From Micromonosporaceae bacterium KJ-029 (GTDB taxonomy: Bacteria; Actinomycetota; Actinomycetes; Mycobacteriales; Micromonosporaceae): a DNA stretch of 64,000 nucleotides. Under the pieces are notes generated by a model. That model was not told the DNA's origin. It did no database searches and worked only from the letters and a program-made list of their open reading frames with translations. Location: contig BIFP01000008.1 in NCBI GenBank assembly GCA_005402585.1, positions 372,001 to 436,000 on the forward strand. The letters are read 5' to 3'. Positions 4,925 to 59,730 of this stretch are shown piece by piece. Numbering within the stretch: the first letter of the stretch is position 1; each line of letters opens with the position of its first letter. The translations under genes were made by a program, and so were the position numbers.

Positions 4925-4978
4925 GGAAGGAGGGGCCCCTTGTTAACGCCTCGTGTAGTAGAAGGGCCCCCTCTTAAC
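4925..4978 (+). repeat. GGGCCCC/TTAAC element, copy 1 of 4
   Basis: The element has two half-units, each GGGCCCC followed a few bases later by TTAAC, joined by a linker with CGTGTAGTAGAA. It covers the region where the NUDIX start codon would be expected, so it either supplies the first 13 codons (from TTG at 4940) or lies in the leader. The other copies are at 10913-10964, 28432-28483 and 59678-59730 (reverse). Confidence 0.9.
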
Positions 4979-4993
4979 AACGAGGGCGGCTGG

Positions 4994-5554
4994 GTGGCGC
5001 TACACGCCGACGCGCTGGCACTGCTCGCCGACTGGGCGCCGACCAGCCCGGACGCCGCAACCGCCCGCGATCGTACGCTCAACCTGCTGGCCGCCGGACC
5101 GGTCGCGATGAGCCGTGAGCACCGGGCCGGGCACGTCACCGCCAGCGCGCTGGTGTTCGACGCGACCGGCTCCCGGGTGCTGCTCTGCCTGCACGGCAAG
5201 TTCCACAAGTGGGTGCAGCTCGGCGGGCACTGCGAGCCCGGCGACCGGACGCTGGCCGGAGCGGCGCTGCGCGAGGCCACCGAGGAGTCGGGCATCGCCG
5301 ACCTGCGGCTGGATCCGGTACCGATCGACGTGGACGTGCACCCGGTGGGCTGCCAGGGCGGGTCGTTGCACCACGACATCCGTTTCGCCGTGTTCGCCCC
5401 GCCCGGGGCGGTGGAACGGCTCAGTGCGGAGTCCGAGGCGCTGGGCTGGTTCCCGCCGGACCAGTTGCCACAGCCACTGGCCGGCGGGACGGCCCGACTC
5501 GTCACGCCGGGCCTGGCGGCCTTCAGACGAGCTTGTCCTCGCCCCGCTCCTTGA
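4994..5554 (+). CDS. NUDIX hydrolase
   Basis: NUDIX proteins hydrolyse nucleoside diphosphates linked to another group. The Nudix box is visible at about residues 76-101 as GGHCEPGDRTLAGAAL then REATEESG, with the metal-binding REATEE core intact. I placed the start at GTG 4994. The in-frame TTG at 4940 would give 204 residues, but its first codons are pure GGGCCCC-repeat sequence, so the choice is uncertain. The product is 186 residues from GTG 4994. The 3' end overlaps the convergent manC gene by 32 bp. The substrate cannot be read from the sequence. Confidence 0.85.
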   Translation: MALHADALALLADWAPTSPDAATARDRTLNLLAAGPVAMSREHRAGHVTASALVFDATGSRVLLCLHGKFHKWVQLGGHCEPGDRTLAGAALREATEESGIADLRLDPVPIDVDVHPVGCQGGSLHHDIRFAVFAPPGAVERLSAESEALGWFPPDQLPQPLAGGTARLVTPGLAAFRRACPRPAP

Positions 5555-6614
5555 GTTCGTCGACGATCGCCTTGACGTCCTGGGCGCGGTCGCGGGGGCA
5601 GACCAGCAACGCGTCCGGGGTGTCGACCACGATGAGGTCCCGTGCGCCGACAGTGGCCACCAGCCGACCGGACTGCGGCACCACCACCATGCCGCTGCTG
5701 TCGTGCAGCAGCACCTCGGCCTTCCCGTCCATCCCGAGCACCACGTTGCCGTCGGCGTCCGCCGGCAGCACCTCGCCGAGGGTGTGGAAATCACCCACGT
5801 CGTTCCACCGGAAGTCGCCCGGCACGGTCGCCACCCGCCCGGCGCTCGCCGCGCCCTCCATCACCGCGTAGTCGACCGAGATCTTCGTCAGCGTCGGCCA
5901 GACCGCGCCGAGCACGTCGTCCTGCTCGGGGGTGCCCCAGACCGCCGCGATCGCGGTTACCCCGGTGTGCAGGGCGGGCTGCTGGCGGGCCAGCTCGGCG
6001 AGGAACGCGGACACCCGCCAGACGAACATGCCGGCGTTCCACAGGTACCGGCCGGACCGGACGTACGCCTCGGCCACCTCGGCGTTCGGCTTCTCCTTGA
6101 ACTCGACGACCGGGCGCATCGGGCTGTCACCGACCGGGTCACCGGTCTGGAGGTACCCGTACCCGGTCTCGGGGCGGGTCGGGGTGATCCCGACGGTCAT
6201 CAGCAGCCCCTGCTCCGCACCCTTGACCGCCTCCCGGACCGTGGCCACCCACCGCTCCGGTTCGCCGATCAGGTGGTCGGCGGCGAACGAGCCCATGACC
6301 GCGTCCGGGTTCCGTACGGCGATCACCGCCGCGGCCAACGCGATGGCGGCGCAGGAGTCCCGCGGCGAGGGCTCGATCAGGATGTTCTCCTCCGGCAGAC
6401 CGGTCAGCTGGCGGGCCACGGCCGCGGCGTGGGCGGCGCCGGTGACCACCATGGTGTGCTCCGGGGTGGTCAGCGGCGCCAGCCGCTCCACCGTCGCCTG
6501 GAGCAGCGACGCGGACGTACCGGTGAAGGGATGGAGGAACTTGGGATGGCCGGCGCGGGACAGCGGCCACAACCTTGTGCCGCTGCCACCCGCCGGAATG
6601 ACGACATAGATCAC
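5523..6614 (-). CDS. manC: Mannose-1-phosphate guanylyltransferase (GDP-mannose pyrophosphorylase)
   Basis: It makes GDP-mannose from mannose-1-phosphate and GTP, feeding PIM, glycan and glycoprotein synthesis. The 363-residue protein begins MIYVVIPAGGSGTRLWPLSR and continues AGHPKFL, the nucleotidyltransferase signature. It has only the transferase domain and no C-terminal phosphomannose isomerase domain. Start GTG 6614 is the only start that leaves the Rossmann strand at the N-terminus; the upstream SD is weak. It is followed on the same strand by the glycosyltransferase gene after a ~50 bp gap. GDP-mannose made here would also serve PimA, at the right end of the window. Confidence 0.93.
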   Translation of the reverse strand: MIYVVIPAGGSGTRLWPLSRAGHPKFLHPFTGTSASLLQATVERLAPLTTPEHTMVVTGAAHAAAVARQLTGLPEENILIEPSPRDSCAAIALAAAVIAVRNPDAVMGSFAADHLIGEPERWVATVREAVKGAEQGLLMTVGITPTRPETGYGYLQTGDPVGDSPMRPVVEFKEKPNAEVAEAYVRSGRYLWNAGMFVWRVSAFLAELARQQPALHTGVTAIAAVWGTPEQDDVLGAVWPTLTKISVDYAVMEGAASAGRVATVPGDFRWNDVGDFHTLGEVLPADADGNVVLGMDGKAEVLLHDSSGMVVVPQSGRLVATVGARDLIVVDTPDALLVCPRDRAQDVKAIVDELKERGEDKLV

Positions 6615-6663
6615 TAGGACATCATGCCCGAACCGCCCGGACCGGGCGCCCCGGTTGCGGGCG

Positions 6664-7806
6664 TCAGGCCCGTGCCCGGGACCAGGCCGCGATGTGTACC
6701 TCGGCGCTGGACTCCCAGGTGAACTCCTTGGCCCGGTCGAAACCGGCCTTGGCCAGCGACAACCGGCGCGGCTCGTCGTCCAGCAGCGCGGCCAGGTCGG
6801 CGGCGATCTGGTCCGGCGCCTCGCTGGTGTACGCGACCGCGTCGCCACCCACCTCCGGCAGCGACAGCCGGGGCGTGGTGAGCACCGGAGCGGCACACGC
6901 CATCGCCTCCAGGATCGGCAACCCGAACCCCTCGCCGTACGACGGGTAGGCGGCGACCAGGGCACCGCCGAGGAAGCCGGGCAGGTCGGCGTAGCGGAGG
7001 TAACCCGGGCGCAGCAGCCGCAGGTGCGACGGCACCTCGGCCACCGCACGGTCGATGTCGTCGTCGTGCCCCTGGCCGCCAGCGACGACCAGCGCGGGCG
7101 GGTCCTCCCGGTCGGCGACCGCCCGGGCCCAGCCACGGATCAGGTTCGGCACGTTCTTGCGCGGCTCCTTGGCGCCAAGGAACGCGACGTAGCTGCTGCC
7201 GCCGAGGCCGAGCCGGGCGCGTACCCGGGCCTTCTCCTCGTCACTGGGGGCGTGGAAGGCGGCGTGGTCCACGCCGTGGTACGCCACGTCGATCCGGGTC
7301 GGGTCGGCGTCCAGCAGCCGGATCAGCTCGTCGCGGGTGGCCTTGCTGGGCACGATCACCCGGTCGGCGCGGCGCAGCGAGGTCTTGATGGCGCTGCGGA
7401 AGAATGTCCTGCGGGACTTGTCGTAGTGCTCCGGTTCGGTGAAGAAGGTCGCGTCGTGCACGGTCACCGTGACCGGGCAGCCGGCCCGCAACGGACAGGT
7501 GTAGAAGGGCGAGTGCAGCACCTCCGCGCCGACCTGCTGGGCGAGCAGGGGCAGGCCGGTCTGCTCCCAGGCGAGCCGGGCGGGCCGGTGGGCGACGGCG
7601 GCGGGTGCGGGGATGATCTCCGCGCCGGGCAGCATCCTGCGGTAGCGCTCCAGGTCGGTGCGGAGGCTGACCACGACCAGGTCCACCGCCGACCCGCACA
7701 CCTTGCCGAGGGCACCGAGCAGGCCGTCGACGTATCTACCGACGCCACCACGGTCGGCGGGGACACTCGTGGCGTCGATGAGCACGCGGGGCGGGCCGGC
7801 GGTCAC
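6664..7806 (-). CDS. GT4-type glycosyltransferase
   Basis: This 380-residue GT-B glycosyltransferase has an N-terminal acceptor domain starting VLIDATSVPADRGGVGRYV. The C-terminal donor domain holds GAKEPRKNVPNLIRGW and the E-x7-E motif in SYGEGFGLPILEAMACAAPV, near residues 285-305. GTG 7806 is preceded by AAGGAGT at good spacing. No membrane span or signal peptide is seen, so it acts in the cytoplasm, probably on a nucleotide-sugar and a lipid-linked or protein acceptor. Its place next to manC suggests mannose or a related donor (inference). In mycobacteria the equivalent position is held by the rhamnosyltransferase wbbL, which is a different family. Confidence 0.88.
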   Translation of the reverse strand: MTAGPPRVLIDATSVPADRGGVGRYVDGLLGALGKVCGSAVDLVVVSLRTDLERYRRMLPGAEIIPAPAAVAHRPARLAWEQTGLPLLAQQVGAEVLHSPFYTCPLRAGCPVTVTVHDATFFTEPEHYDKSRRTFFRSAIKTSLRRADRVIVPSKATRDELIRLLDADPTRIDVAYHGVDHAAFHAPSDEEKARVRARLGLGGSSYVAFLGAKEPRKNVPNLIRGWARAVADREDPPALVVAGGQGHDDDIDRAVAEVPSHLRLLRPGYLRYADLPGFLGGALVAAYPSYGEGFGLPILEAMACAAPVLTTPRLSLPEVGGDAVAYTSEAPDQIAADLAALLDDEPRRLSLAKAGFDRAKEFTWESSAEVHIAAWSRARA

Positions 7807-7957
7807 GGGGCGACTCCTTGCACTGACGGGACTGTGGGGAACAACACTCCGGGCAAGCCTACGCCGAAGCCGGGTACGGACATTGACTGCGACCCGACGG
7901 TACGCCGACTTGTCGCTGTCATCGACTACGGGCGGCGGGCGCGTATCGTTCGCGCCG

Positions 7958-8647
7958 ATGGCCGACAACATTGCCCGGGTGTTCGCCGACGCGATCGCGC
8001 CGGATCCGACCCGACCGCTACTGACCTGGTACGACGACGCCACCGGCGAGCGCACCGAACTCTCCGGCGCGACGCTGGCGAACTGGGCGGCCAAGACCGC
8101 CAACCTGCTCGTCGACGAGTTGGCCCTCGGCCCCGGCGACACGGCGGCGCTGCTGCTCCCGCCGCACTGGCAGACCGCTGCGGTGCTGCTGGGCTGCTGG
8201 TCGGCCGGGCTGACCGTGGTCGACACGCCGGGTGCGGTGAATGTGATCTTCGTCGCCCCGGACCGGGTCGCCGAGGCGGACACCTGGTCGGCCGGCGACC
8301 GCTACGCGCTCGCCCTGCACCCGTTCGCGCTGCCGCTTCGGGAGGTGCCGGCCGGCTTCGCCGACTACGTGACCGAGGTACGCGCCCACGGCGACCACTT
8401 CGGGGCGTACCCGCCGGGTGGCCCGGCCCATGCCACGCTGCGCGCCCGCGCCACCGCCCGCGCCGCGGAGCTGGGCATCGCCTCCGGTGACCGGGTCCTC
8501 GTGGACGTGGACCGGTACCCGGACCCGATCGACTGGCTACTCGCCCCGCTCGCGGCCGGCGCCAGCCTGGTCCTGTGCGCCCACCCCGACCCGGCCCGCC
8601 TGCCCGACCGCCGAGCCGCGGAAAAGGTCACCCTCCCTCTCCCCTGA
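7958..8647 (+). CDS. TIGR03089-type protein (truncated acyl-adenylating-enzyme-like)
   Basis: The 229-residue product resembles the N-terminal part of AMP-binding acyl-CoA synthetases (RPLLTWYDDATGERTELSGATLANWAAK, then LGPGDTAALLLPPHWQTAAVLLGCW). It is far shorter than an active ligase and lacks the SSGTTG-type P-loop. I recognise it as the TIGR03089 family, found next to manB/rml genes in mycobacteria (Rv3268). Function is unknown; catalysis of adenylation is unlikely without the P-loop. It starts at ATG 7958 and diverges from the glycosyltransferase across ~150 bp. Confidence 0.8.
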   Translation: MADNIARVFADAIAPDPTRPLLTWYDDATGERTELSGATLANWAAKTANLLVDELALGPGDTAALLLPPHWQTAAVLLGCWSAGLTVVDTPGAVNVIFVAPDRVAEADTWSAGDRYALALHPFALPLREVPAGFADYVTEVRAHGDHFGAYPPGGPAHATLRARATARAAELGIASGDRVLVDVDRYPDPIDWLLAPLAAGASLVLCAHPDPARLPDRRAAEKVTLPLP

Positions 8648-8660
8648 CCCGGCACCCGCC

Positions 8661-8729
8661 GATCATGGAGTTGTGGTGGGCGGTCGAACCACATTCGCCC
8701 CATCTGCGGAGCACCACAACTCCATGATC
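8661..8729. terminator. Perfect 18-bp inverted repeat, probable bidirectional terminator
   Basis: The arms 8661-8678 and 8712-8729 (GATCATGGAGTTGTGGTG and its exact complement) enclose a 33-nt spacer. It lies between two convergent genes, 14 bp after the stop of the TIGR03089 gene. The long loop and lack of a T tract make it look as much like a small repeated element as a textbook terminator. Confidence 0.7.
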
Positions 8730-8756
8730 GCGGGGCGGGGCGGGGGCCGGGCGGGG

Positions 8757-10784
8757 CTAGAGCTTGGGGCGGGTCTGGGCGAGGGTGGCGAAGGCGGTCA
8801 GGGATTCCGGGTTGGCGAGGGCACCCTTTGCGGCGGCCTGGTCGACGGGGGTGCCGGTAAGGATCTTCTTGACCGGGACCTCCAGCTTCTTCGCCGACAG
8901 GGTGCGCGGGACGGCGCGGACCTGGTGGATCTCGTCGGGGACGTGCCGCGGCGACAGCGCGGTACGCAGCTCACGGCAGATCTTCTTCCGAAGTTCGTCG
9001 TCCAGCGTCAGTCCCTCGGCGAGCACCACGAACAGCAGCAACTCACCGGCGCCGCCCTCGTCGTCCTCCAGGTGCACCACCACCGAGTCGACGACCTCGT
9101 CCAGCCCCTCCACCACCGAGTAGAACTCGGCGGTGCCCAGCCGGACACCACCCCGGTTGAGGGTGGCGTCGGACCGGCCGGTGATCACACAACCGCCGCG
9201 CTCGTTGATGGTGATCCAGTCGCCGTGCCGCCACACCCCCGGGTAGACGTCGAAGTACGCCTCCCGGTAGCGGACGCCGTCCGGGTCGTTCCAGAAGCCC
9301 ACCGGCATGCTCGGCATCGGTTCGGTGATCACCAGCTCGCCCAGCTGACCGATGACGGGCGTGCCGTCCGGTGACCGGGCCTCCACCTTGGCACCCAGCG
9401 CCCGGCAGGTGATCTCCCCGGCATGCACCGGCAGCAGCGGAACCCCGCCGACGAAACCGGTGCACACGTCGGTGCCGCCGGAGAGCGACTGGAGCTGGAG
9501 GTCGGTGCCGACCGTGTCGTACACCCAGGTGAAGCCCTCGGCGGGCAGCGGCGCGCCGGTCGAGCCGACCCCGCGCAGCGCGGACAGGTCGGCCACCTCC
9601 CGTGGTACCAGGCCCGCCTTGCGGCAGGCCAGCAGGAACGGTGCCGAGGTGCCGAAGTACGTGGTGTCGGTCTCCCCGGCCAGCCGCCACAGCTCACCCA
9701 GGTCGGGGTGGCCCGGGTTGCCGTCGAACAACACGATCGCCGCGCCCACCGCCGGCCCGGAGACCAGGAAGTTCCACATCATCCAGCCGGTGGTGGTGAA
9801 CCAGAAGAAGCGGTCGGCCGGGCCCAGGTCGTGGTGCAGGGCGAGCATCTTCAGGTGTTCCAGCAGGATGCCGCCGTGGCCGTGCACGATCGGCTTGGGC
9901 AGGCCGGTGGTGCCGGAGGAGTAGAGCACGTAGAGCGGGTGGTCGAACGGCACCGGGGTGAAGGCCAGCGGCTCGTCGGTCTCCGCCGCCAGGTCGGCCC
10001 AGGAGATCGCACCCTCGGGCGCGGCCTTCATTCGGTCCGAAGCGCCGCCTAGCGGCGCGGAGGCCGAATTAGGGCCGTCAGCGGCCGCCGGGTCGAGGTA
10101 GGAGATGTTGACCGTGTGCCGCAGCGAGGGCAGCGCGGCCCGGATCGCGGCCACCTCGGCGCGCCGGTCCACCGGCTTGTCGCCGTACCGGTAGCCGTCC
10201 ACCGCGACCAGCACCTTCGGCTCGATCTGCTGCCACCGGTCGGTGACGCTGCGGGTGCCGAACTCCGGCGCACACGAGGAGAAGATCGCACCGAGGCTCG
10301 CCGTGGCCAGCAGCAGCACGTACGTCTCGGGGATGTTGGGCGCGTACGCGGCCACCCGGTCGCCGGTGCCGACGCCGAGCCGGCGCAGCCCGGCGGCCAC
10401 CCGGCGGACCTGCTCGCGCAATTGCGCGGCGGTCAGCACCACCGGTGCGCGGGTCTGCCCGTGCGCGATGACCACCGGGTCGTCGTCGGCCCGACCGGGC
10501 ATCCGCAGAACGTTCTCGGCGTAGTTGAGCGTGGCGCCGGGGAACCACCGGGCACCCGGCATGCCCCGCCCTGCCAGGGTGGCGGCCGGCGGGGTGTGCG
10601 CGACGACCTCGAAGTGGTCCCAGATCGAGCGCCAGAACTCCTCAAGGTCAGTGACCGACCACCGCCACAACGCGTCGTAGTCGGCGAACTCCAGCCCGCG
10701 GTGCTCGGCCAGCCAGCGCAGGTACGCCCCGATCCGCGACCGCTGGAGCACGTCCGCCGGCGGCGTCCACAGCACGTCAGTCAC
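8757..10784 (-). CDS. aacS: Acetoacetyl-CoA synthetase
   Basis: It activates acetoacetate to acetoacetyl-CoA with ATP, for ketone body or polyhydroxybutyrate carbon use. The 675-residue protein matches family length (~650) and has the ACS N-terminal region (WRWSVTDLEEFWRSIWDHF), the P-loop LYSSGTTGLPKP, and the C-terminal GGVRLGTAEFYSVVEGLDEV and LSAKKLEVPVKK motifs. The catalytic lysine follows SAK. GTG 10784 has GGGAGGAG upstream. About 16 residues near 238-253 (NSASAPLGGASDRMKA) come from a palindromic DNA insert. It is probably transcribed alone. Confidence 0.93.
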   Translation of the reverse strand: MTDVLWTPPADVLQRSRIGAYLRWLAEHRGLEFADYDALWRWSVTDLEEFWRSIWDHFEVVAHTPPAATLAGRGMPGARWFPGATLNYAENVLRMPGRADDDPVVIAHGQTRAPVVLTAAQLREQVRRVAAGLRRLGVGTGDRVAAYAPNIPETYVLLLATASLGAIFSSCAPEFGTRSVTDRWQQIEPKVLVAVDGYRYGDKPVDRRAEVAAIRAALPSLRHTVNISYLDPAAADGPNSASAPLGGASDRMKAAPEGAISWADLAAETDEPLAFTPVPFDHPLYVLYSSGTTGLPKPIVHGHGGILLEHLKMLALHHDLGPADRFFWFTTTGWMMWNFLVSGPAVGAAIVLFDGNPGHPDLGELWRLAGETDTTYFGTSAPFLLACRKAGLVPREVADLSALRGVGSTGAPLPAEGFTWVYDTVGTDLQLQSLSGGTDVCTGFVGGVPLLPVHAGEITCRALGAKVEARSPDGTPVIGQLGELVITEPMPSMPVGFWNDPDGVRYREAYFDVYPGVWRHGDWITINERGGCVITGRSDATLNRGGVRLGTAEFYSVVEGLDEVVDSVVVHLEDDEGGAGELLLFVVLAEGLTLDDELRKKICRELRTALSPRHVPDEIHQVRAVPRTLSAKKLEVPVKKILTGTPVDQAAAKGALANPESLTAFATLAQTRPKL
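10031..10071. repeat. Palindromic element inserted in frame in aacS
   Basis: The core is a perfect hairpin, GCGCCGC-CTA-GCGGCGC, flanked by TTCGG on the left and CCGAA on the right. It interrupts the coding sequence between YLDPAA and AISWADL, where related enzymes have a short linker, without breaking the frame. It resembles intragenic palindromes known from other bacteria, such as Rickettsia RPEs, in behaviour, not in sequence. Confidence 0.75.
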
Positions 10785-10912: not shown

Positions 10913-10964
10913 AAGGAAGGGCCCCTTTTTAACGCCTGCGGTAGTAGACGGGCCCCTTCTTAAC
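10913..10964 (+). repeat. GGGCCCC/TTAAC element, copy 2 of 4
   Basis: It begins AAGGAAGGGCCCC and ends GGGCCCCTTCTTAAC, with linker GCCTGCGGTAGTAGAC. It ends 5 bp before the thioesterase stop codon (minus strand) and lies between two minus-strand genes, thioesterase and aacS. Confidence 0.9.
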
Positions 10965-10969
10965 ACGGC

Positions 10970-11488
10970 TCACTGTGCGCGGTGTGCCTGGATGGCGCGG
11001 CGGCGGGCCAACCGGTGGGCACGCCGGATCTCCGCCTCCCGGCACCGGCGTTCGTCCTCCGGCGTCTCGGGCAGCACCGGGCGCACCGCCCGCGGCGCAC
11101 CGCCCACCTCGACACCGACGAAGACGAGGTACGCGGTGGCCACCCGCACCGGCTCGTCCTCGGCCGAGTCCCAGCGTTCGGCCATCACCCGTACGCCGAC
11201 CTCCATCGACGTCAGCCCGGTCCAGTTCACCTGGGCGTACGCGTGCACCAGGTCACCCACCCGAACCGGCTCGGAGAACACGATCTCGTCGATCGCGGCG
11301 GTGACCGCCGTACCGCCGCTGTGCCGGGCCGCCGCCGCACCGGCGACGTCGTCGACGAACTTCATCAGCACGCCGCCGTGCACGGTGCCGTAGAGATTCA
11401 CGTCGACGGCGGTCATGATCCGGCTGAGCGTGACCCGGGAGTACGACGTCGGCTTGCCCGGCGGAGCGGCGGAGGGGTGCTCGGTCAT
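10970..11488 (-). CDS. Acyl-CoA thioesterase, hotdog fold
   Basis: This 172-residue, single-hotdog protein should hydrolyse acyl-CoA to free acid and CoA in the cytoplasm. The family signature NLYGTVHGGVLMKFVDDVAGAAAARHSGG is present in pieces, including the GTVHGG loop and the D-D pair, as in YciA/BFIT-type enzymes. The C-terminal tail is Arg-rich (RRAHRLARRRAIQAHR), beyond the fold. The start ATG at 11488 fits the alignment. It is divergent from a membrane protein gene 23 bp away, so the two promoters overlap. Chain-length preference cannot be read. Confidence 0.88.
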   Translation of the reverse strand: MTEHPSAAPPGKPTSYSRVTLSRIMTAVDVNLYGTVHGGVLMKFVDDVAGAAAARHSGGTAVTAAIDEIVFSEPVRVGDLVHAYAQVNWTGLTSMEVGVRVMAERWDSAEDEPVRVATAYLVFVGVEVGGAPRAVRPVLPETPEDERRCREAEIRRAHRLARRRAIQAHRAQ

Positions 11489-11511
11489 GTCGAAAACGGT
11501 ACGGTGCGCGG

Positions 11512-12252: not shown

Positions 12253-12256
12253 GGCG

Positions 12257-27324: not shown

Positions 27325-28368
27325 TCAGTTGGTCAACGCGTCCAGCGCCAGGTCGACGTCCCCCTCGGTGGAGTACAGGTGGAAGGCGGCCCGGACCCGG
27401 CCGGCCCGGACCGATGCGCGGACGCCGGCCCGTTCCAGCTTCTCCCGTGCGCCGGGCACCTCCACGGTGACGATCGCGCTGTCGCCGGGCGGTTGTCCCA
27501 GTCCCGCGAGGAACCGGTTGGCCAACGCCACGTCGTACGCGTGCACCGCCGGCACCCCGATCTCCAACAGCAGTTCCAGCGCCGGGGCCGCACCGACCCA
27601 GCTGAACCAGGCGGGCGAGATGTCGAACCGGCGCGCGTCGTCGGCGAGCCGCAGGGGCGGCCCGTAGTAGGACGCGTGCGGGTCGCGACCGGCGTACCAG
27701 CCGGCGGCGTCCGGCCGCAGCCGATCCCGCAGCGCAGGGTCGAGATAGGCGAACGCGGTGCCCCGGGGACCCATCAGCCACTTGTACCCGCCGGTCACCA
27801 CCACGTCGGCGCGGGCCGCCTCGAACGGCAGCCAGCCGCACGCCTGGGTGGCGTCGACCGCGACGAGCGCGCCGTGGGCCCGGGCTGCCGCGACGATGTC
27901 GTCGTACGCGGCCACCGCACCGTCGGCGGACTGCACCAGGCTGAACGCCACCAGGTCGGTGCCGGCGTCGACCGCCGAGGCCAGCTCGTCCAGCGGCACG
28001 GTGCGTACCTCGACCCCCCGTTCCCGCTGTACCAGCCAGGGAAAGAGATTCGAGGTGAACTCGACCTCGGGGACGACCACCCGCGCACCGGCGGGCAGGG
28101 CGGCGGCGACCGGCGCCAGCAACTGGGAGACGTTGGCACCGACCGCCACGTCGGCCACCGGCACCCCGACCAGCCGGGCGAACGCGGCCCGGGACCGCTC
28201 GGTCGCCTCGCCCCAGACCTCCCACGAGCCCCGTCCCACGCGCCAGGCGGCGAGTGCCTCCTGCAACGCCTCCCAGGCCGGGTCCGGCGGCAACCCGTAG
28301 CTGGCGGTGTTCAGCCATCCGGGCTGCGGTTGCCACAGCTTCTGCGCCTGTTCCAGTTCCACGCCCAC
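27325..28368 (-). CDS. PLP-dependent aminotransferase class V
   Basis: The 347-residue enzyme has the class V fold shared by cysteine desulfurases, kynureninase and isopenicillin N epimerases. The PLP lysine is in VVVTGGYKWLMGPRG, with LVAVDATQACGWLP as the cofactor-binding Asp strand and the N-terminal WLNTASYGLPPD motif. It lacks the cysteine loop needed for a desulfurase role, so epimerase/aminotransferase-like chemistry is more likely. The start is GTG 28368 or the GTG six bases on; neither has a strong SD. It stands alone. Confidence 0.85.
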   Translation of the reverse strand: MGVELEQAQKLWQPQPGWLNTASYGLPPDPAWEALQEALAAWRVGRGSWEVWGEATERSRAAFARLVGVPVADVAVGANVSQLLAPVAAALPAGARVVVPEVEFTSNLFPWLVQRERGVEVRTVPLDELASAVDAGTDLVAFSLVQSADGAVAAYDDIVAAARAHGALVAVDATQACGWLPFEAARADVVVTGGYKWLMGPRGTAFAYLDPALRDRLRPDAAGWYAGRDPHASYYGPPLRLADDARRFDISPAWFSWVGAAPALELLLEIGVPAVHAYDVALANRFLAGLGQPPGDSAIVTVEVPGAREKLERAGVRASVRAGRVRAAFHLYSTEGDVDLALDALTN

Positions 28369-28431: not shown

Positions 28432-28483
28432 AAGGAAGGGCCCCCTGTTAACGCCTGCGGTATAGGAGGGGCCCCTTGTTAAC
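28432..28483 (+). repeat. GGGCCCC/TTAAC element, copy 3 of 4
   Basis: It begins AAGGAAGGGCCCCC and ends GGGGCCCCTTGTTAAC, with linker GCCTGCGGTATAGGA. The last TTAAC supplies the TAA stop codon of the dicarboxylate symporter on the minus strand, so the element has become part of that gene's end. Confidence 0.92.
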
Positions 28484-29891
28484 GGGGCCGGGCCAGCGTC
28501 GTGACCAGCTCACGGTCGGATCGGTTCGGCTGCTCCGGTTGGCGCGGCTGGTCCGTCGCGGAACCGTCCTCCTCGTCGAGCATGGTGCTCTCGTCGAACG
28601 GGCGCTGGCCGCTGAGTACCGCCCGCGCCTGCTCACGGTCGAACTCGCCGGTCCAGGTGCCGACCAGGACGGTGGCGACCGCGTTGCCGGCGAAGTTGGT
28701 CAGTGCCCTCGCCTCGGACATGAACCGGTCGATGCCGACGATCAGCCCGACCCCGTCGAGCAGATCCGGCCGATGCGACTGGAGCCCGCCGGCGAGCGTG
28801 GCGAGACCGGCACCGGTCACCCCCGCCGCCCCCTTCGAAGCGATGATCATGAACAGCAGCAGGCCGACCTGTTCTCCGATCGACATCGGCTTGCCCATCG
28901 CGTCGGCGACGAACAACGCGGCCATGGTCAGGTAGATCGCCGTCCCGTCGAGGTTGAACGAGTACCCCGTCGGCACGGTGATCCCGACGACCGGCTTGCT
29001 GATGCCGACGTGCTCCATCTTCGCGATCAGCCGGGGCAACGCCGACTCCGACGACGAGGTGGAGACGATGAGCAGGAACTCCCGTCCGAGGTAGCGGATC
29101 AGGGTGAAGATGTTCACCCGCGCCACCAGCCAGAGCAGCGAGCCGAGCACCACGACGACGAAGAGCAGGCAGGTTGCGTAGAAGCCCAGCATGATCTGGG
29201 CGAGGCTGGTCAGGGCGTCGACACCGGTCGCGCCGACCACCGCCGCCATGGCCCCGAACGCGCCGATCGGGGCAACCCACATGATCATGGCGAGGACCTT
29301 GAAGACGAGCCGCTGGATGACGCCGATCGCGCGCAGCACCGGCTCACCCCGGGTACCGAGGCCCTGCACCGCGAAGCCGACCAGCAGCGCGACCAGCAGC
29401 GTCTGCAACACCTCGCCCCCGGTGAGGGCGGAGAGCAGCGAGGTCGGGATGACGCCGAGAAGGAAATCGGTCGTCCCGGCGCTCTCCCCGCCAGCCGCGG
29501 CCTGGCCGGCACCGGCCGTGCCGGCGTCCAGGTGCAGGCCGGAGCCGGGCTGGATGATGTTGCCGACCACCAGGCCGATGGCCAGCGCGACGGTCGACAT
29601 GAGCAGGAAGTAGCCGAGCGCCAGTCCGCCGACCTTGCCGACCTTCGCCGCCTGCCGGACGGAGCCGACGCCGAGCACGATGGTGCAGAAGATCACTGGG
29701 CTGATCATCATCTTGATCAGGGCGATGAAGCCGGTGCCGAGCGGTTTCAGCGCGACACCGACCTCGGGGGCGGCGAGACCGACGACGACACCGGCGACCG
29801 CCGCGGCGATCACCGCCAGATAGAGGTAACGGGTGAGATCCCGGCGCGCGGACCGGGCCGGCGTCGGGGCGGTGGCGTGGGTGGTGTCCAT
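28479..29891 (-). CDS. dctA: Sodium/proton:C4-dicarboxylate symporter (DctA-like)
   Basis: The 470-residue protein belongs to the DAACS family that imports succinate, fumarate, malate or aspartate/glutamate. Visible marks are the Ser-rich re-entrant loop LLIVSTSSSESALPRLIAKM, the VPTGYSFNLDGTAIYLTMA motif, and about eight hydrophobic spans. The C-terminal 60 residues are polar. The stop codon comes from the GGGCCCC/TTAAC repeat. It diverges from a DcuS/DcuR-like pair, the usual arrangement for dicarboxylate-induced transport, which favours dicarboxylates over glutamate as substrate (inference). Confidence 0.9.
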   Translation of the reverse strand: MDTTHATAPTPARSARRDLTRYLYLAVIAAAVAGVVVGLAAPEVGVALKPLGTGFIALIKMMISPVIFCTIVLGVGSVRQAAKVGKVGGLALGYFLLMSTVALAIGLVVGNIIQPGSGLHLDAGTAGAGQAAAGGESAGTTDFLLGVIPTSLLSALTGGEVLQTLLVALLVGFAVQGLGTRGEPVLRAIGVIQRLVFKVLAMIMWVAPIGAFGAMAAVVGATGVDALTSLAQIMLGFYATCLLFVVVVLGSLLWLVARVNIFTLIRYLGREFLLIVSTSSSESALPRLIAKMEHVGISKPVVGITVPTGYSFNLDGTAIYLTMAALFVADAMGKPMSIGEQVGLLLFMIIASKGAAGVTGAGLATLAGGLQSHRPDLLDGVGLIVGIDRFMSEARALTNFAGNAVATVLVGTWTGEFDREQARAVLSGQRPFDESTMLDEEDGSATDQPRQPEQPNRSDRELVTTLARPR

Positions 29892-53957: not shown

Positions 53958-54001
53958 CAGTCCGCCGAACGAGGTCTTCCGGCAGAGGCCATGGCGGGAC
54001 G

Positions 54002-55273
54002 TCACAACTCGGGCAGTTTGCGCATGGTGCGCAGCGGGGAGAAGACGACCCAGAACACCCCGAGCAGGGCCGCGAGGCTGGCAATCCAGAGGGCGGGACG
54101 TACCCCGATCGCGGCACCGAGTGCCCCGCCGATCAGGGCACCGATCGGCCGGATGCCGTGGTTGACGGTGCGTCTGAAACCGGAGACCACGGCGAGCATC
54201 GCCACCGGTGTGGCCGCGATCTGCACCGATCCGACCGCGATGTCGAGGACTATGACGCCCAGTGCGGAGACGAACTCGGCGGCGAACAGCAGCGCGAGCA
54301 CCAGCGGCTGCGGTCCCATGGCCAGTGGCACGAGGACAAGTGGGGCCGGAAAGGCGACGAAACCGAGGAGCACCGCGGGGCCGATGCCGATCCGGCGACT
54401 GATCGGGCCGGTGACCGCCGCGCCAAGCAGTCCGCCGAACGCGCCGGCCCCGATGATCAGGCCCAGTACGCCAGGGGAGACGCCCAGATCCGTGGTCACG
54501 TACAGCACGAAGAGCGCGGCGAACATGTAGTTGAACAGGTTGAGCGTGGTGGTGCCGAACAGCGTCGCCCGTAGTACCGCAGAGCGGGCCACGTACCGCA
54601 CGCCGGCAGCCATGCCCAGGGCCGAGCCGCTCGGTACGGGACGCTCTGTGACCCTTGTCCGGGCCAGGAAGACCGCCGACGTCAGATAGGTGAGCACGCC
54701 GGAGACCAGTGCGACCGGGGCGGTGAGCACCTGCACGAGCACGCCACCGATGCTCGGGCCGGCAACGTGCGACATGGCTCTGCTGCCGTTGACCAGGCTG
54801 TTGGCGTCCACATAGTCCGGCCGCTGGACCAGGGCGGCGAACAGGCTGATGTGCGCCACCTCGAAGAACACCGAGAGGACCCCGATAAGGAAGGCCACGG
54901 CACAGAGCAGCAGCAGGTTCAGTGCGTCCGCCCACCACAGCAGTGGCACAGCCAGCAGAAGGCCTGCCCGGCCGAGGTCGGCGATGATCATTACCTGGCG
55001 TCGGCGCGGGTACCGGTCCACCCAGGCGCCGGCCGGCAGGGAGAAGAACAGGTTCGGCAGCAGCGAGGCGGCGGTCAGGTAGCCCATCTCGGCGGGTCCG
55101 GCGCCGACCGCGAGCAGGGCCAGCAGCGGCACGGCGAGCATGGTGATCTGGTCGCCGAAGAGCGAGACGGTCTGCGCGGACCAGTAGCGGCGGAAGGCGG
55201 TTTGCTGTAGCAGCCGCGGGATGCGCGGCCAGCGCGGCGGTGCCGGGTCGGCCAGGACGAGGGGTTCAATCAT
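54002..55273 (-). CDS. Major facilitator superfamily transporter, MefA/enterobactin-exporter type
   Basis: The 423-residue protein has 12 predicted spans: RRYWSAQTVSLFGDQITMLA opens span 1, and AGAWVDRYPRRRQVMIIADL is the motif A loop. Its start overlaps the end of the ArsR-type regulator gene by 8 bp, so the two are an operon and the regulator likely controls efflux of an unknown compound. Confidence 0.88.
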   Translation of the reverse strand: MIEPLVLADPAPPRWPRIPRLLQQTAFRRYWSAQTVSLFGDQITMLAVPLLALLAVGAGPAEMGYLTAASLLPNLFFSLPAGAWVDRYPRRRQVMIIADLGRAGLLLAVPLLWWADALNLLLLCAVAFLIGVLSVFFEVAHISLFAALVQRPDYVDANSLVNGSRAMSHVAGPSIGGVLVQVLTAPVALVSGVLTYLTSAVFLARTRVTERPVPSGSALGMAAGVRYVARSAVLRATLFGTTTLNLFNYMFAALFVLYVTTDLGVSPGVLGLIIGAGAFGGLLGAAVTGPISRRIGIGPAVLLGFVAFPAPLVLVPLAMGPQPLVLALLFAAEFVSALGVIVLDIAVGSVQIAATPVAMLAVVSGFRRTVNHGIRPIGALIGGALGAAIGVRPALWIASLAALLGVFWVVFSPLRTMRKLPEL

Positions 55274-55883
55274 GGTCGGATCCCGCGCGCTGGCCCTCGG
55301 AGGGTACGACTTTGCGCGGTAGCGCCATCTGGACGATCATCACTGGGCGGGACCCGGGCGGGCGTTTCGCCGGGTCGGCGATCCGCTCGTCGTACCGGGC
55401 CAGCAGCGCGTCGACCTCCTCCGTGAGCTCGCGCAGCTCGGTGGCGGTGACGTGCAGCAGCGCGTCGCCGAAGCCGGCGGCGGCCCGCCACTCGACGGGC
55501 TCGTCGGCGCGGATTGCGAGGTACTCCTGCGCGCGTTGCAAGTAGAGGGCGAGCATGAGGCTGTTGATCTGATCCGTGGCGGCCTTCATGGCCGGATCGT
55601 CGGAGTCGTCGTCCCAGGACGTGTATTGCGTGGTGGCTCGCCAGGGCCGTTCCCGACCGTCCGCACCGGGAACGCGTTCGGCGAACCCGTACTTGGCGAG
55701 CTGCCGCAGATGGAACGAGCAGTTCGGCACGTTGTCGTCGAGCCGGGCGGCAGCCTGAGTTGCGGTCATCGGTCCTTCGCCGCGCAGCAGCCCGATCAGG
55801 CGCATCCGCAGCGGGTGCGCGTACGCCCGCAGGGCGCGTGGGTCGGTGACTTTGATGGAACGGTGAGGCACCTCGTCGGTCAC
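55266..55883 (-). CDS. ArsR/winged-helix regulator
   Basis: The 205-residue protein has an N-terminal winged helix: LRAYAHPLRMRLIGLLRGEG, MTATQAAARLDDNVPNCSFHLRQLAKYG, with a ~100-residue C-terminal helical domain. No metal cysteine box is present, so an organic ligand is more likely. GTG 55883 sits right after TACTAT (minus strand), which could be a -10 box, so the message may be leaderless. It is the first gene of a regulator-exporter operon. Confidence 0.88.
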   Translation of the reverse strand: MTDEVPHRSIKVTDPRALRAYAHPLRMRLIGLLRGEGPMTATQAAARLDDNVPNCSFHLRQLAKYGFAERVPGADGRERPWRATTQYTSWDDDSDDPAMKAATDQINSLMLALYLQRAQEYLAIRADEPVEWRAAAGFGDALLHVTATELRELTEEVDALLARYDERIADPAKRPPGSRPVMIVQMALPRKVVPSEGQRAGSDHD

Positions 55884-55892
55884 ATAGTAGAG

Positions 55893-55911
55893 GATACTTT
55901 AGAAAGCTATC
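55893..55911. promoter_or_regulatory. AT-rich imperfect dyad, candidate operator
   Basis: GATACTTTAGAAAGCTATC pairs as GATA..TT...AA..TATC, 9 bp upstream of the regulator start, in the only markedly AT-rich patch of this region. It likely covers the promoter and may be the regulator's own site. Confidence 0.5.
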
Positions 55912-55988
55912 TCTAGCAAATGTTCTGGTCGGGGCACGAAGACGGCGCCGTCGCGCCTTCCGCCAGCCGAGGGCCGGTTCAAAAGACA

Positions 55989-56025
55989 GGGCGCGCACGC
56001 AAGCCCGCGGCTCGCGTGCGCGCCC
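55989..56025 (-). terminator. Intrinsic terminator of yebC
   Basis: A perfect 12-bp stem (GGGCGCGCACGC with its complement) and 13-nt loop are followed on the minus strand by CTGTCTTTTG, giving a short T run. It begins 16 bp after the yebC stop. Confidence 0.88.
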
Positions 56026-56040
56026 GTGGTCGGGGCCGGC

Positions 56041-56790
56041 TCAGCCGACCGCCTCCATCACGTCGTCGCTGACGTCGAAGTTGGCGTAGACGTTCTGCAC
56101 GTCGTCGGAGTCCTCCAGGACGTCGATCAGCTTGAAGATCTTGCGCGCGCCCTCTTCGTCCAACGGCACGTTGACGCTGGGGATCAGGGAGGACTCGGCC
56201 GACTCGTACTCGATGCCGGCGTCCTGCAGGGAGGTCCGCACGGCGAGCAGGTCACCCGGCTCGGAGACCACCTCGAACGCCTCGCCCAGGTCGTTGACCT
56301 CCTCGGCGCCCGCGTCGAGGACCGCCAGCATCACGTCGTCCTCGGTGGTGCCCGCCTTCGGCACGATCACCACGCCCTTGCGGGAGAACATGTACGACAC
56401 CGAGCCGGCGTCGGCGAACGAGCCGCCGTTGCGGGTCAGCGCGGTGCGTACCTCGGTGGCGGCGCGGTTGCGGTTGTCGGTCAGGCACTCGATCAGCAGC
56501 GCGACGCCGTTCGGGCCGTAGCCTTCGTACATGATCGTCTGGTAGTCGGCGCCGCCGGCCTCCAGACCGGAGCCGCGCTTGACGGCCCGGTCGATGTTGT
56601 CGTTCGGGACCGAGTTCTTCTTGGCCTTCTGGATGGCGTCGTAGAGGGTCGGGTTGCCGGCCGGGTCACCACCGCCGGTACGCGCTGCGACCTCCACGTT
56701 CTTGATCAGCTTGGCGAACATCTTGCCGCGCTTGGCGTCGATGACCGCCTTCTTGTGCTTGGTCGTCGCCCACTTTGAGTGGCCGGACAT
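56041..56790 (-). CDS. yebC: YebC/PmpR-family protein
   Basis: The 249-residue protein is full length, with [37 protein letters not shown], and [12 protein letters not shown]. Members are transcription regulators and, in recent work, translation factors that relieve ribosome stalling at prolines (TACO1-like). In related actinobacteria yebC usually sits between pdxT and ruvC; here ruvC is not downstream, and pdxT is 2.3 kb upstream. A terminator follows at once. Confidence 0.95.
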
Positions 56791-57012
56791 CTGTTACCTC
56801 CGTTGCTACCCGCCGTCTGCATCGACCGCACCGCACGCGCCCCGCTCCGCACCCGGCGCACACGGTGGTGCCGGTCAGCTCTGGTGGAAGCCGTGGCGGC
56901 CAGATGGCCCTGCCGAATCTCGACAATCCTACCGACGCACCACGACTGACCGTCACCCGCCGCACGCTAGCGGTCGGCGCGATCCCTGCGATCAACGCAT
57001 AGCGGACAAAAG

Positions 57013-57309
57013 CTATTCCCCCATGCCGTACGACCCCAGTACGGTGAAACCGGCGCTGCTCCGCTGTTCGCAGCGCTCCTCCAGGTCGGCCCGGTAGCGC
57101 TGGAACGACTCCAGTGCCGGCAGCGGCCCGGGCAGCTCCGGGCCCATGGCGATGTCGACGAAGCGGTGCCCGCTATCGAGCCGCAGGGCCAGGTAACGGA
57201 ACCCCGGCGGCCTGAGCCGGGCCAGTTCCTCGTGTACGGCGCCGAGCAGGGTCAGGTGCTCCGCGAGGCGATCGGGGCGGACCACGTACGTGATCATGAT
57301 CGTCTCCAT
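57013..57309 (-). CDS. Conserved small protein of unknown function
   Basis: The 98-residue product (METIMITYVVRPDRLAEHLT, then LGAVHEELARLRPPGFRYLA) looks like a ferredoxin-like alpha/beta fold of the dimeric barrel kind used by small monooxygenases, based on the ITYVVRP strand and helix pattern only. It starts 2 bp after the FMN reductase stop with GGTGAG as SD, so the two are one operon and it may be that enzyme's partner. No catalytic residues are identified. Confidence 0.7.
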   Translation of the reverse strand: METIMITYVVRPDRLAEHLTLLGAVHEELARLRPPGFRYLALRLDSGHRFVDIAMGPELPGPLPALESFQRYRADLEERCEQRSSAGFTVLGSYGMGE

Positions 57310-57311
57310 GC

Positions 57312-58010
57312 TCACCGCCCCGCCACCGGGACCGTGTCCCGACCTGTCGCCCCGCCGGCGCCACCACCGGCCCGATCCGGCTCCGGCCGATCGCCGGAGC
57401 CGCGTCCCCCGGCAGCCGTAAGGAGGTCGGTGAGCATCGCTGTCAACGCCGCCGCCCGGCCCTCGCCAGGCACGATCGGTGCTTGCGCGGTCGGATCGGA
57501 CGACTCCTCGCCGGACCAGTCGAAGTCGGCAAAGAGCCCCAGCTCGACGTGGCCCGGCACGACCGTCATCCCCACCTCGGTGAGAATCGACCGCAGGTGC
57601 TCGACCGCCTGCCCGCCTCCGTGCACGCCGTAGCAGAGCACACCGGCCGGCTTGCCACGCCACTCGGCGTCCAGATAGTCGATGCCGTTCTTGAGCACGG
57701 CCGGAATCGAATGGTTGTACTCGGGGGTCACGAAGATGAAGGCGTCACACGCCGCCACCACCGCCGACCAGCGGCGGGTGTGGTCATGGCGGTAGTCGCC
57801 GAACCTCGCCGGCACCGGTTCGTCCAGCATCGGCAGCCGCTGCTCCGCGAGGTCGATCAGCTCGACGGTTGCGGCGCCGGCCCGTATCACCGGGTGCCCG
57901 GCCGCCACCTCGGCCGCCCATCGGGCCACCGCCGGCCCCCGTCGGCCCGGACGGCTGCTGCCCACGACCAGGCCCACGACGACCGGTCCGTTCTTCTGCG
58001 CACTGTTCAT
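57312..58010 (-). CDS. NAD(P)H-dependent FMN reductase
   Basis: The 232-residue flavodoxin-fold protein has the FMN phosphate loop in VVGLVVGSSRPGRRGPAVARW and the family motif FVTPEYNHSIPAVLKNGIDYL, plus GVHGGGQAVEHLRSIL. It transfers electrons from NAD(P)H to FMN, quinones or nitro/azo compounds. The last ~40 residues are a disordered Gly/Arg tail. It diverges from an MmyB-like regulator, 100 bp away, which probably controls it; such reductase/regulator pairs are common in actinobacteria. Confidence 0.92.
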   Translation of the reverse strand: MNSAQKNGPVVVGLVVGSSRPGRRGPAVARWAAEVAAGHPVIRAGAATVELIDLAEQRLPMLDEPVPARFGDYRHDHTRRWSAVVAACDAFIFVTPEYNHSIPAVLKNGIDYLDAEWRGKPAGVLCYGVHGGGQAVEHLRSILTEVGMTVVPGHVELGLFADFDWSGEESSDPTAQAPIVPGEGRAAALTAMLTDLLTAAGGRGSGDRPEPDRAGGGAGGATGRDTVPVAGR

Positions 58011-58110
58011 GTTTCGATCCCACCGGCGTTCCGGCACCGCCGGGAGGCCGGCGCGAGGGTAGCCCTGGCGGGGACACCCTCGCGCCCGGCGGCACCGGCA
58101 GACTGGACCC

Positions 58111-58962
58111 GTGATCGACGGAGAGTTGGGCGCGTTCCTCCGCAGCCGCCGGGAGGCCCTGCGGCCCGGCCAGGTGGGGTTGCCCGAAGGTACCCGGCGG
58201 CGCACTCCGGGACTGCGCAGGGCGGAGTTGGCCACGCTGGCCCAGGTCAGCGTGGAGTACCTGACCCGCCTCGAACAGGGCCGGGACACCCGGCCCTCAC
58301 CGGAGATCCTCGCCGCGCTGGCCGACGCGCTGCGGCTCGGCGACGCCGACCGGCAACACCTGCAGGAACTCGCATCGGTCGACCATCGCCGGCAACTGTG
58401 CGCGGGCGGGCGGCCAGCGATCTCGCGTACCGTCCGCCCGGAGGTCCGGACGCTGCTGGAGGCGCTGCGCGACCGGCCGGCGTACCTGCTCAACCGGCTC
58501 GGCGACGTGCTCGCCTGGAACGACACGTTCGACCGGCTGGCCCGCCCGCTGGGGCTGCTCGACGGCGATCACCCCAACCTGGTGTGGTTCGTGTTCACCG
58601 ACGAACGGGCCCGCGAGTACTTTCCCGACTGGGCGGAGCTGGCCGACCAGCAGGTCACCGAGTTGCACGGGCTGCGCCGGGGTGACCGGGCCACCGACGC
58701 GTTCGCCGAGCGACTCGGCCGTACCGTCGGAGCGCCGTTCACGTCTCGATGGCTGCGGCGGCCGGTCGCGGTGAGGTCCACCGGCCGCCGCTGGTTGCGG
58801 CATCCGGAGGTGGGGCCGCTGAGGCTGGCGTACGAGACGCTGGAGGTCGCGGACGACCAGCAGCGGCTGGTGGTGCAGCTACCCGCCGACGCCGCCAGCG
58901 CGGAGGCGCTGGACCGGCTGCTGGGCCGGCGGCCGGGTGGGCTGCGCTCGGTGGCCGGCTGA
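58111..58962 (+). CDS. XRE-family regulator with MmyB-like ligand domain
   Basis: The 283-residue protein has an N-terminal HTH_31 domain: GAFLRSRREALRPGQVGL, LRRAELATLAQVSVEYLTRLEQGRDTRPS (in pieces, about 5-65), and the MmyB-like C-terminal domain (AYLLNRLGDVLAWNDTFDRL, WVRHP-type WLRHPEVGPLRLAYE). Such domains bind fatty acids or small aromatics. It diverges from the FMN reductase gene, its likely target. The start is GTG 58111. Confidence 0.92.
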   Translation: MIDGELGAFLRSRREALRPGQVGLPEGTRRRTPGLRRAELATLAQVSVEYLTRLEQGRDTRPSPEILAALADALRLGDADRQHLQELASVDHRRQLCAGGRPAISRTVRPEVRTLLEALRDRPAYLLNRLGDVLAWNDTFDRLARPLGLLDGDHPNLVWFVFTDERAREYFPDWAELADQQVTELHGLRRGDRATDAFAERLGRTVGAPFTSRWLRRPVAVRSTGRRWLRHPEVGPLRLAYETLEVADDQQRLVVQLPADAASAEALDRLLGRRPGGLRSVAG

Positions 58963-58986
58963 AGTTCGGACCGGCCCGGAGGCCGG

Positions 58987-59040
58987 CACGCGCTGGCCCG
59001 CTTCGACTCGCGCCACGCTCTGGCCCGGTTCGACTCGCGC
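58987..59040. repeat. 27-bp tandem duplication at the end of the regulator gene
   Basis: Units 58987-59013 and 59014-59040 (core GGCCCGSTTCGACTCGCGC) match at 25 of 27 positions. They lie between the regulator stop and the convergent pdxT stop. The TTCGACT core recalls a tRNA T-loop, but no stem fits around it. Confidence 0.85.
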
Positions 59041-59053
59041 CGCGCCGACGGGC

Positions 59054-59665
59054 TCAGCTCGCGGTGCGGACCAGTTCCACGAAGTATCCGTGCAGCCGCA
59101 GGTCGCCGGTGAGTTCCGGGTGGAACGAGGTGGCCAGCAGGTTGCCCTGGCGCACTGCCACGATCCGGCCGGCCGCCGGGCCGTCGGTGACCGTACCCAG
59201 GACCTCGACGGCGTCGCCGACCCGTTCGACCCAGGGGGCGCGGATGAAGATCGCGTGCAGCGGCCCGCCGGCGACGCCGGCGACCTCGACCGGCGCCTCG
59301 AACGAGTCGACCTGCCGGCCGAACGCGTTGCGCCGCACGGTCATCGCGATGCCGTCGAAGCCGCGCTGGTCCGGCCGGCCGTCGAGCACCTCGGTGGCCA
59401 GCATGATCATGCCGGCGCACGATCCGTAGACCGGCATCCCGGCGGCGATCCGCTTGTCGATCGGGTCACGCAGGTCGAAGATGTCGACCAGCTTGCTGAT
59501 CGTGGTGGACTCCCCGCCCGGGATGACCAGGGCGTCGACCGCGTCGAGTTCCTCTGGCCGGCGGACCGGGCGGGCCTGCGCGCCCGCCCCGGTCAGCGCC
59601 GTGACGTGTTCGCGGACGTCGCCCTGCAGGGCGAGCACACCGATCACGGGTGCCGTCACGTGCAT
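59054..59665 (-). CDS. pdxT: Pyridoxal 5'-phosphate synthase glutaminase subunit
   Basis: PdxT releases ammonia from glutamine and passes it to PdxS for PLP synthesis. The 203-residue class I glutaminase has [14 protein letters not shown], the GGEST oxyanion loop, the nucleophile cysteine in YGSCAGMI, and the His-x-Glu pair in [10 protein letters not shown]. It follows pdxS on the same strand, with a GGGCCCC/TTAAC element in the 69-bp gap, so the two genes may not be as tightly coupled as usual. Confidence 0.96.
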
Positions 59666-59677
59666 ACCCTTCCAGGT

Positions 59678-59730
59678 GTTAAGAGGGGGCCCCTGTTCTA
59701 CGCGAGGCGTTAACAGGGGGCCCCTCCTTT
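59678..59730 (-). repeat. GGGCCCC/TTAAC element, copy 4 of 4 (reverse)
   Basis: Read on the minus strand it begins AAAGGAGGGGCCCCC and ends GGGGCCCCCTCTTAAC, with linker GCCTCGCGTAGAACA. It fills the gap between pdxS and pdxT, 13 bp before the pdxT start and 4 bp past the pdxS stop. Confidence 0.92.

Follow-up and report, generated by a model that had tools for sequence, protein, structure and literature searches.

A palindromic REP-type repeat of Micromonosporaceae that lies at stop codons and may act as a 3'-end hairpin

The window analyzed here, a stretch of 64,000 nucleotides from Micromonosporaceae bacterium KJ-029 (assembly GCA_005402585.1, contig BIFP01000008.1, positions 372,001 to 436,000), carries four copies of a 52-bp element made of a palindromic unit that is repeated twice in direct orientation. 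Comparison of the copies within and between genomes leads us to propose, with moderate confidence, that the element represents a palindromic family of the repetitive extragenic palindromic (REP) type in Micromonosporaceae and may act as the 3'-end hairpin of the gene that it abuts. The copy number, the patchy carriage, the about 55 bp by which the occupied gap is longer at one site, and the genome-specific homogenization of the copies fit a REP-type repeat, while the tight link to stop codons, the few hairpins found downstream, and the other hairpins standing at empty sites fit a 3'-end signal. According to this proposal, the element would sit directly at the stop codon, often giving the stop itself, would form or replace the hairpin marking the 3' end of the upstream mRNA, and would act as a terminator or as a 3'-end or stability signal, from both sides if palindromic. 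Transcripts would be ended or protected by the element, its spread may proceed by insertion or by template-switch turnover, and a host or mobile factor would keep the copies uniform.

The four copies, which had originally been predicted from the window alone, are real, as each of them matches AAGGARGGGCCCCYTNTTAACGCCTNNNGTANNNNNNGGGCCCCYTNTTAAC with zero mismatches. Their positions are as follows:

4927..4978, plus strand: copy 1, a direct dimer with cores at 4933-4947 and 4964-4978, lying ahead of a NUDIX gene in a divergent gap
10913..10964, plus strand: copy 2, a direct dimer that on its right side comes within 5 bp of the stop of a thioesterase gene (minus strand)
28432..28483, plus strand: copy 3, a direct dimer, the right TTAAC of which gives the TAA stop of an SDF/dctA-like symporter gene (minus strand)
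59678..59729, minus strand: copy 4, a direct dimer in the pdxS-pdxT gap, beginning 5 nt past the pdxS TGA

The half unit GGGCCCCYTNTTAAC, with at most two mismatches allowed, was found 8 times in the window versus 0.25 expected, and no shuffle reached 8. A pattern search of the whole genome (Micromonospora, 7.2 Mb) extended the family far beyond these four copies, to 171 direct dimers (94 forward and 77 reverse), counted as matches with up to three mismatches; a looser pattern gave 173, and the reversed pattern used as a control gave 0 matches. The expectation of hundreds of copies per genome was therefore right in its order of magnitude. The placement of the copies at gene borders, also predicted originally, is confirmed. 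Copy 1 had been thought to overlap the NUDIX start; it lies 15 bp ahead of the called start, though it does overlap an alternative TTG start at 4940.

The relation to stop codons was analyzed in 107 of the 171 copies, namely the best matches first plus their neighbors in the same stretches (70, 30, 6, and 1 of them with 0, 1, 2, and 3 mismatches), which were read with their flanks against gene borders from a home-made codon-usage gene finder. All but two, which lie inside called genes, are intergenic (105/107), with 49 in convergent, 32 in tandem same-strand, 16 in tandem opposite-strand, and 8 in divergent gaps. The upstream gene reads toward the element in 81 of the 105 intergenic copies, where 48% would be expected from the gap types (p ≈ 1.6e-9), and in 72 of these 81 cases the stop codon ends between -2 and +6 of the first base of the element, compared with 16.9 expected from uniform placement in the same gaps. 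Among the 72 stops, 33 are at +5 (TGA), 23 at -2 (TAA), 11 at 0 (TGA), and 5 elsewhere, the TAA at -2 being built with the element's own AA. Stops are in fact given in three frames: TAA at 0..2, TGA at -2..0, and an abutting TGA at -7..-5. In convergent gaps, 43/49 left ends meet a stop versus 6/49 right ends, as judged with an equal window; altogether, 78 of the 105 intergenic copies touch a stop at at least one end and 10 do so at both. The link recurs less strictly in other genomes (18/26, 17/22, 9/16, 4/10, and 15/20 copies). In some convergent gaps of the KJ-029 genome (loci L001, L087, and L088), there are two elements, one at the stop of either gene, and a second element was noted within seven gap remainders of the sample.

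The repeat unit proved to be a palindrome of 21-23 bp, GTAAGGARGG-NNN-CCYTNTTAAC. Its strict core is AAGGARGG-NNN-CCYTNTTAAC, and a left extension GGTGT and a right extension A are kept less strictly, so that the full form reads (GG)TGTAAGGARGG-NNN-CCYTNTTAACA. Units stand alone or in pairs, the pairs being either direct dimers with a 31-bp period or inverted dimers. Wherever two units lie within less than 200 bp of each other on the same strand of the sampled KJ-029 sequence (108 distinct pairs), their spacing is 31 bp; opposite-strand pairs 15-45 bp apart number 6 versus these 108 direct pairs, and lone units are few. Perfect inverted dimers with a 30-bp offset were also found in relatives. 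When 13 genomes were searched for units with an A directly behind them, genome G147 yielded 42 forward and 38 reverse matches and the other 12 yielded 1 to 20; most of the unit matches listed for G147 stand in inverted pairs, and most inverted dimers read have GACGTC at their center. The element has terminal inverted repeats (GGTGTAAGGARGG versus GGTGTTAANARGG; also written GGTGTWARNARGG), which are perfect or nearly perfect in inverted dimers. The right unit is preceded by GTA(G/T), with G in 74/107 copies, and the left one by GTG. No boundary or length showed a clear excess of target-site duplications, the copies being possibly too old. No match to Rfam at the gathering threshold was obtained in the window, and copy 4 gave only a microRNA match far below it (18 bits versus 100, E 0.4).

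Orthologous sites were compared in a scan of named genomes comprising 80 loci around one KJ-029 region that bears three copies. At the stop of a TetR-family gene, the element is present in 12 loci, counting that of KJ-029, and missing from most others in Micromonospora. Across 47 comparable loci (the genes matched too weakly in 3 of 50, which were set aside), the median gap is 65.5 bp where occupied (n = 12) versus 9 bp where empty (n = 35); nine of the 12 occupied gaps measure 45-76 bp, and the three outliers (-620, 448, and 1334) come from gene detection. The occupied gap is thus longer by about 55 bp, close to the element length, at the stop codon, from which we infer that the element was gained rather than lost at this site. 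The TetR protein ends within one residue of its usual length in 11/12 occupied loci, the exception being L124. On a tree of 56 rows built on about 1.7 kb of DNA, 6 changes of the occupancy label were counted, at least two changes being required by well-supported branches. At pdxS, the element begins +1 to +5 past the same TGA in 12 of the 13 element-bearing genomes examined (G134 lacks it) and was found at the pdxS stop in 0/13 readable element-free loci, a set from which 8/29 loci unreadable by the pattern and G141, with the gene split at a contig end, were left out. Orthologous copies are identical at 91% (TetR) or 83% (pdxS) of the constrained core positions, at about 50% of the free positions, and at 35-38% of the 27 bp that follow, as counted column by column with a few one-base-indel copies not realigned. 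Since sites are shared by many carriers and missing in other genomes, they are not the identical positions in all distant relatives that would mark a purely ancestral, immobile sequence; nevertheless, much of the distribution is old and vertical.

Among element-free Micromonospora, traces of decay at the TetR site exceeded the shuffle maximum only in locus L131 (15 versus 12). Decayed-looking copies were seen in the L131:5805 region (M. avicenniae) and the L143:5077 region (Micromonospora sp. CB01531), at TetR and purA sites, and neither locus holds an intact element. The idea that M. avicenniae has a separate repeat family was rejected, as the single-unit pattern gave 1 match in that genome. 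At the second of the two palindrome sites described below, loci L437 and L438 (G631 and G134) lack the 61 bp of G147 and the gap is closed, which may represent either a true empty site or an exact deletion.

Two sites at which G147 carries palindromes, L350 and L345, were then examined by comparing the same gap in the 30 best of 121 Micromonospora genomes each, the first being G147 itself. At the L350 site, a hairpin stands between the same converging stops in 28/29 genomes, including 22/23 without direct dimers, compared with 4/29 after shuffling; the hairpin of locus L408 is the inverted form of the element. At the L345 site, where 20 of the 29 other loci were scored (17 + 3) and 9 could not be placed, a hairpin was found in 13/20 genomes and in 7/8 element-free ones, with 2/17 after shuffling. 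In the pdxS-pdxT gap, a hairpin with z < -2 was found in 5/10 element-free loci with 50 nt or more between the stop and the conserved PdxT start. Strong hairpins also follow 43/98 element-free convergent 3' ends of the KJ-029 genome (4 when shuffled), at a median of 12 nt past the stop, and in same-strand gaps a further hairpin lies behind the element in 1/23 cases versus 26/106 element-free gaps (Fisher p 0.044). With other hairpins at empty sites and few behind the element, the latter appears to take the place of an ordinary 3' hairpin.

Some particulars of these two sites should be added. The L350-site hairpin GGARGGGCCCCTNNNCGAGGGGCCCYTCC was considered as a second repeat family and rejected, because it has one site per genome in the 9/28 genomes having it. 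In loci L399, L409, and L411 (element-free genomes G620, G615, and G651) and others, the core of the hairpin at the L350 site is GGAAGGGCCCCT..AGGGGCCCTTCC, like that of the element, and it occurs at a single site in each of those genomes. Both G147 palindromes have CTGAGGT on one flank and ACCTCAG on the other; template switching there could copy the stop codon across.

Whether the element folds was assessed next to shuffled sequences. Because its halves are direct repeats of a palindrome, with a self-reverse-complementary core, the whole 52-mer can fold as one imperfect hairpin. Among the window copies, only 4 and 1 clearly beat their shuffles in folding (z -4.22 and -2.51), the values for copies 2 and 3 being -0.44 and -0.45. 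The consensus folds as a single long hairpin (z -4.7). Inverted dimers in G147 have arms matching at variable positions (20/22 and 21/22, p < 0.001), and in 26 distinct palindromes read the arms agree in 24, 26, 24, and 24 of 26 at positions 0, R6, Y14, and N16. The agreement is significant versus shuffling at positions 0, R6, and N16 and not at Y14, which hardly varies. With matched arms in inverted dimers and, as described below, no covariation in direct ones, the inverted form has support for a structure and the direct form has none. Inverted copies of genome G118 were rejected as a case of compensatory changes: the picture was mixed over 22 copies, with five register/pair combinations giving p 0.001-0.02 and most giving no such signal.

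The element has a narrow and patchy distribution. Among 200 Micromonosporaceae genomes, 27 match, representing 5/44 genera (Micromonospora and four more), and 46 of 121 Micromonospora genomes carry 1 to 228 copies while 75 have none. A class-wide sample gave 2/394 matches, KJ-029 and G045 of the same genus; outside the family, 0/391 genomes matched, and neither phages and plasmids nor viral contigs (exact pattern) gave a match. The copies bear signatures of their genomes. In KJ-029, the first TTAACG is followed by CCTG or CCTC in 92/95 dimers, and TTATC occurs in none; in G071 and G051, the left center is GCA in 33/33 (right center GCA in 24 and TGC in 9) and CTTT occurs in 18; in G016 and G136, TTATC occurs in 19/19 and CTTT in 16. 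With diagnostic bases that vary from genome to genome and hardly within one, the copies evolve in concert, homogenized per genome, so far as loci fetched by similarity to the window pattern, which limits the divergence visible, allow one to see.

Several observations weigh against a role as a 3'-end hairpin. No T-run follows the stem, TTAACA coming next, and the Fisher test for the scarcity of downstream hairpins is weak. In convergent pairs, the gene on the other side has a hairpin of its own as often (8/18) as convergent ends elsewhere do (43/98), 24 of the 105 intergenic copies have no upstream gene facing them, and some copies lie inside apparent operons, such as pdxS-pdxT, where the element is 12 bp before the called pdxT start, a position ill-suited to a strong terminator. 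Two window copies show no folding advantage over their shuffles, the elements reach a median folding energy of only -25.0 kcal/mol, compared with -29.7 at element-free convergent 3' ends, and the direct dimer has no covarying variable pair in either its long or its small unit hairpins (8 pairs, p 0.18-1). The original prediction had named a non-autonomous mobile repeat or an RNA processing or termination signal; both readings have indirect support here.

A functionless selfish repeat, similar to REPs or to miniature inverted-repeat transposable elements (MITEs), that inserts mostly at gene ends because, with its own stop codons, it is harmless nowhere else, is a possible if rather unlikely alternative. 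It would account for the high copy number, the patchy carriage (46/121 Micromonospora), the TetR gap longer by about 55 bp, the terminal inverted repeats GGTGTWARNARGG, the near-identical palindromes in one genome, and the genome-specific homogenization. Uniform survival in gaps, however, predicts 16.9 stop-abutting copies where 72 were seen, the core is kept at orthologous sites with diverged flanks, and other hairpins often stand at the same place in element-free genomes; furthermore, neither a target duplication nor a transposase (Y1_Tnp alone searched) was found. Since the direct-dimer pairs do not covary, recognition as duplex DNA is kept in play, and the cell may, on this evidence, read the element either as an RNA hairpin or as duplex DNA. 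Each unit would then be a palindromic site for a putative dimeric protein, with two such sites about three helical turns apart serving at gene ends as a roadblock terminator or as a nucleoid-protein or recombinase site. We regard this as quite unlikely: the strict arm complementarity of inverted dimers is needless for duplex binding, and the tight stop-codon spacing is left unexplained, even though degenerate positions are symmetric (R6/Y14, R37/Y45) yet vary independently, as duplex half-sites would, direct and inverted arrangements both occur with 108/108 same-strand pairs spaced 31 bp, and the diagnostic bases shift in step per genome as if tracking a recognizer.

The stop at -2..+6 nt in 72/81 cases also recalls a translation-level signal, in which the hairpin would stall the terminating ribosome and lower expression of the upstream gene, as reported for Escherichia coli REPs within 15 nt of a stop; according to earlier work cited in the RepRanger paper (PMC12306157), REPs less than 16 nt from a stop cause ribosome stalling. 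Such a role is very unlikely: the element is common at convergent gene ends and is carried by dozens of genes. Least of all do we favor a classical REP doublet (REPIN) mobilized by a REP-associated tyrosine transposase (RAYT, Y1). The GTAG-like string beside the right unit and the palindromic, high-copy, extragenic nature of the repeat would suit it. Nevertheless, PF01797 was present in 7/27 carriers versus 9/37 non-carriers, i.e. without association, and was lacking in 12/15 same-genus carriers, several of which have more than 100 copies, so that this candidate mobilizer was rejected and the explanation is largely refuted, with hardly any probability left to it. No transposase linked to the element was found, Y1_Tnp being the sole family searched. 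In the KJ-029 genome itself, a single partial match to Y1_Tnp (positions 58-119 of 121; C8:198699-198887) lies about 3.4 kb from the copy at C8:202247, a neighborhood that would speak for a RAYT.

The preferred 3'-end hairpin reading can be elaborated tentatively, in a form that we consider unlikely as a whole. The element would be a dispersed gene-end cassette that colonizes stops and replaces the native terminator hairpin, its copies being kept uniform by a lineage-specific factor; loss of this factor would lead to joint decay, with unrelated hairpins moving into the vacated places. One may imagine as this factor either a mobilizer of a new kind or a sequence-specific protein for 3'-end formation or roadblock termination.

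Among known systems, MITEs resemble the element in the size of about 55-60 bp, the terminal inverted repeats, the longer occupied gap, and the lack of coding capacity, but differ in that no target duplication was seen here, the stop placement is unusually tight, and a parent transposon was not found (Y1_Tnp being the sole transposase searched). Like an intrinsic terminator, it places a hairpin right behind the stop, one that can serve from either side if it is palindromic; unlike one, it has no T-tract, and the direct-dimer hairpin is imperfect and not covarying. In Neisseria and Haemophilus, pairs of uptake sequences act as terminators, and the element similarly may be a short repeated motif doubling as a terminator. 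REPIN-RAYT systems share paired palindromic units, vertical persistence, and patchy loss with it, whereas here carriage is not associated with a Y1 transposase.

The closest likeness is to REPs and bacterial interspersed mosaic elements (BIMEs): a short palindrome (about 20-40 bp) in more than 100 copies, intergenic, between convergent or unidirectional genes near the upstream 3' end, with termini giving stop codons, and occurring as monomers and dimers. The survey of Di Nocera et al. (2013; PMC3733652) describes tagged REP families of the GTAG and CGTC super-families, mainly from gamma- and alphaproteobacteria, and states that proteobacterial REPs lie close to 3' ends, that repeat termini give stop codons, and that most genomes have few or no head-tail dimers; its main text does not mention Micromonospora, Actinobacteria, Salinispora, Streptomyces, or Frankia. 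The RepRanger paper counts REP-like palindromes in three other members of the Actinomycetota, Micromonospora not among them. Compared with what these sources describe, the element differs in its host, Micromonosporaceae, in the predominance in the KJ-029 genome of direct 31-bp dimers rather than opposite-orientation ones (inverted dimers are frequent in some relatives), in stops that are TAA/TGA in three frames and not TAG, and in the lack of a linked RAYT. The host group, the direct 31-bp dimer, the three-frame stop supply, and the lack of a linked RAYT set the family apart from the repeats of these papers; otherwise it is REP-like. No description of the repeat was recognized in titles or abstracts, and six exact sequence strings occurred in no paper text searched.

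This REP-like family belongs to antibiotic-making actinobacteria, lacks a linked RAYT, and is tied almost exactly to stop codons; what keeps repeats of this kind at gene ends has been asked for a long time. The natural pairs of species with and without the element at orthologous sites make a selfish repeat versus a borrowed terminator directly testable, and the patchy carriage permits a clear search for the factor that keeps copies uniform.

The genes next to the window copies, taken from gene calls and Pfam, are the following:

4994..5554, plus strand: NUDIX hydrolase gene, start approximate
8757..10784, minus strand: acetyl-CoA-synthetase-like gene, left of copy 2
10970..11488, minus strand: thioesterase (4HBT) gene, the stop of which abuts copy 2
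27325..28368, minus strand: class-V aminotransferase gene, left of copy 3
28479..29891, minus strand: SDF (dicarboxylate symporter) gene, ending within copy 3
59054..59665, minus strand: pdxT (SNO family) gene, downstream of copy 4
59735..60652, minus strand: pdxS (SOR_SNZ family) gene

The RGW-TGA end of pdxS recurs in relatives with and without the element.

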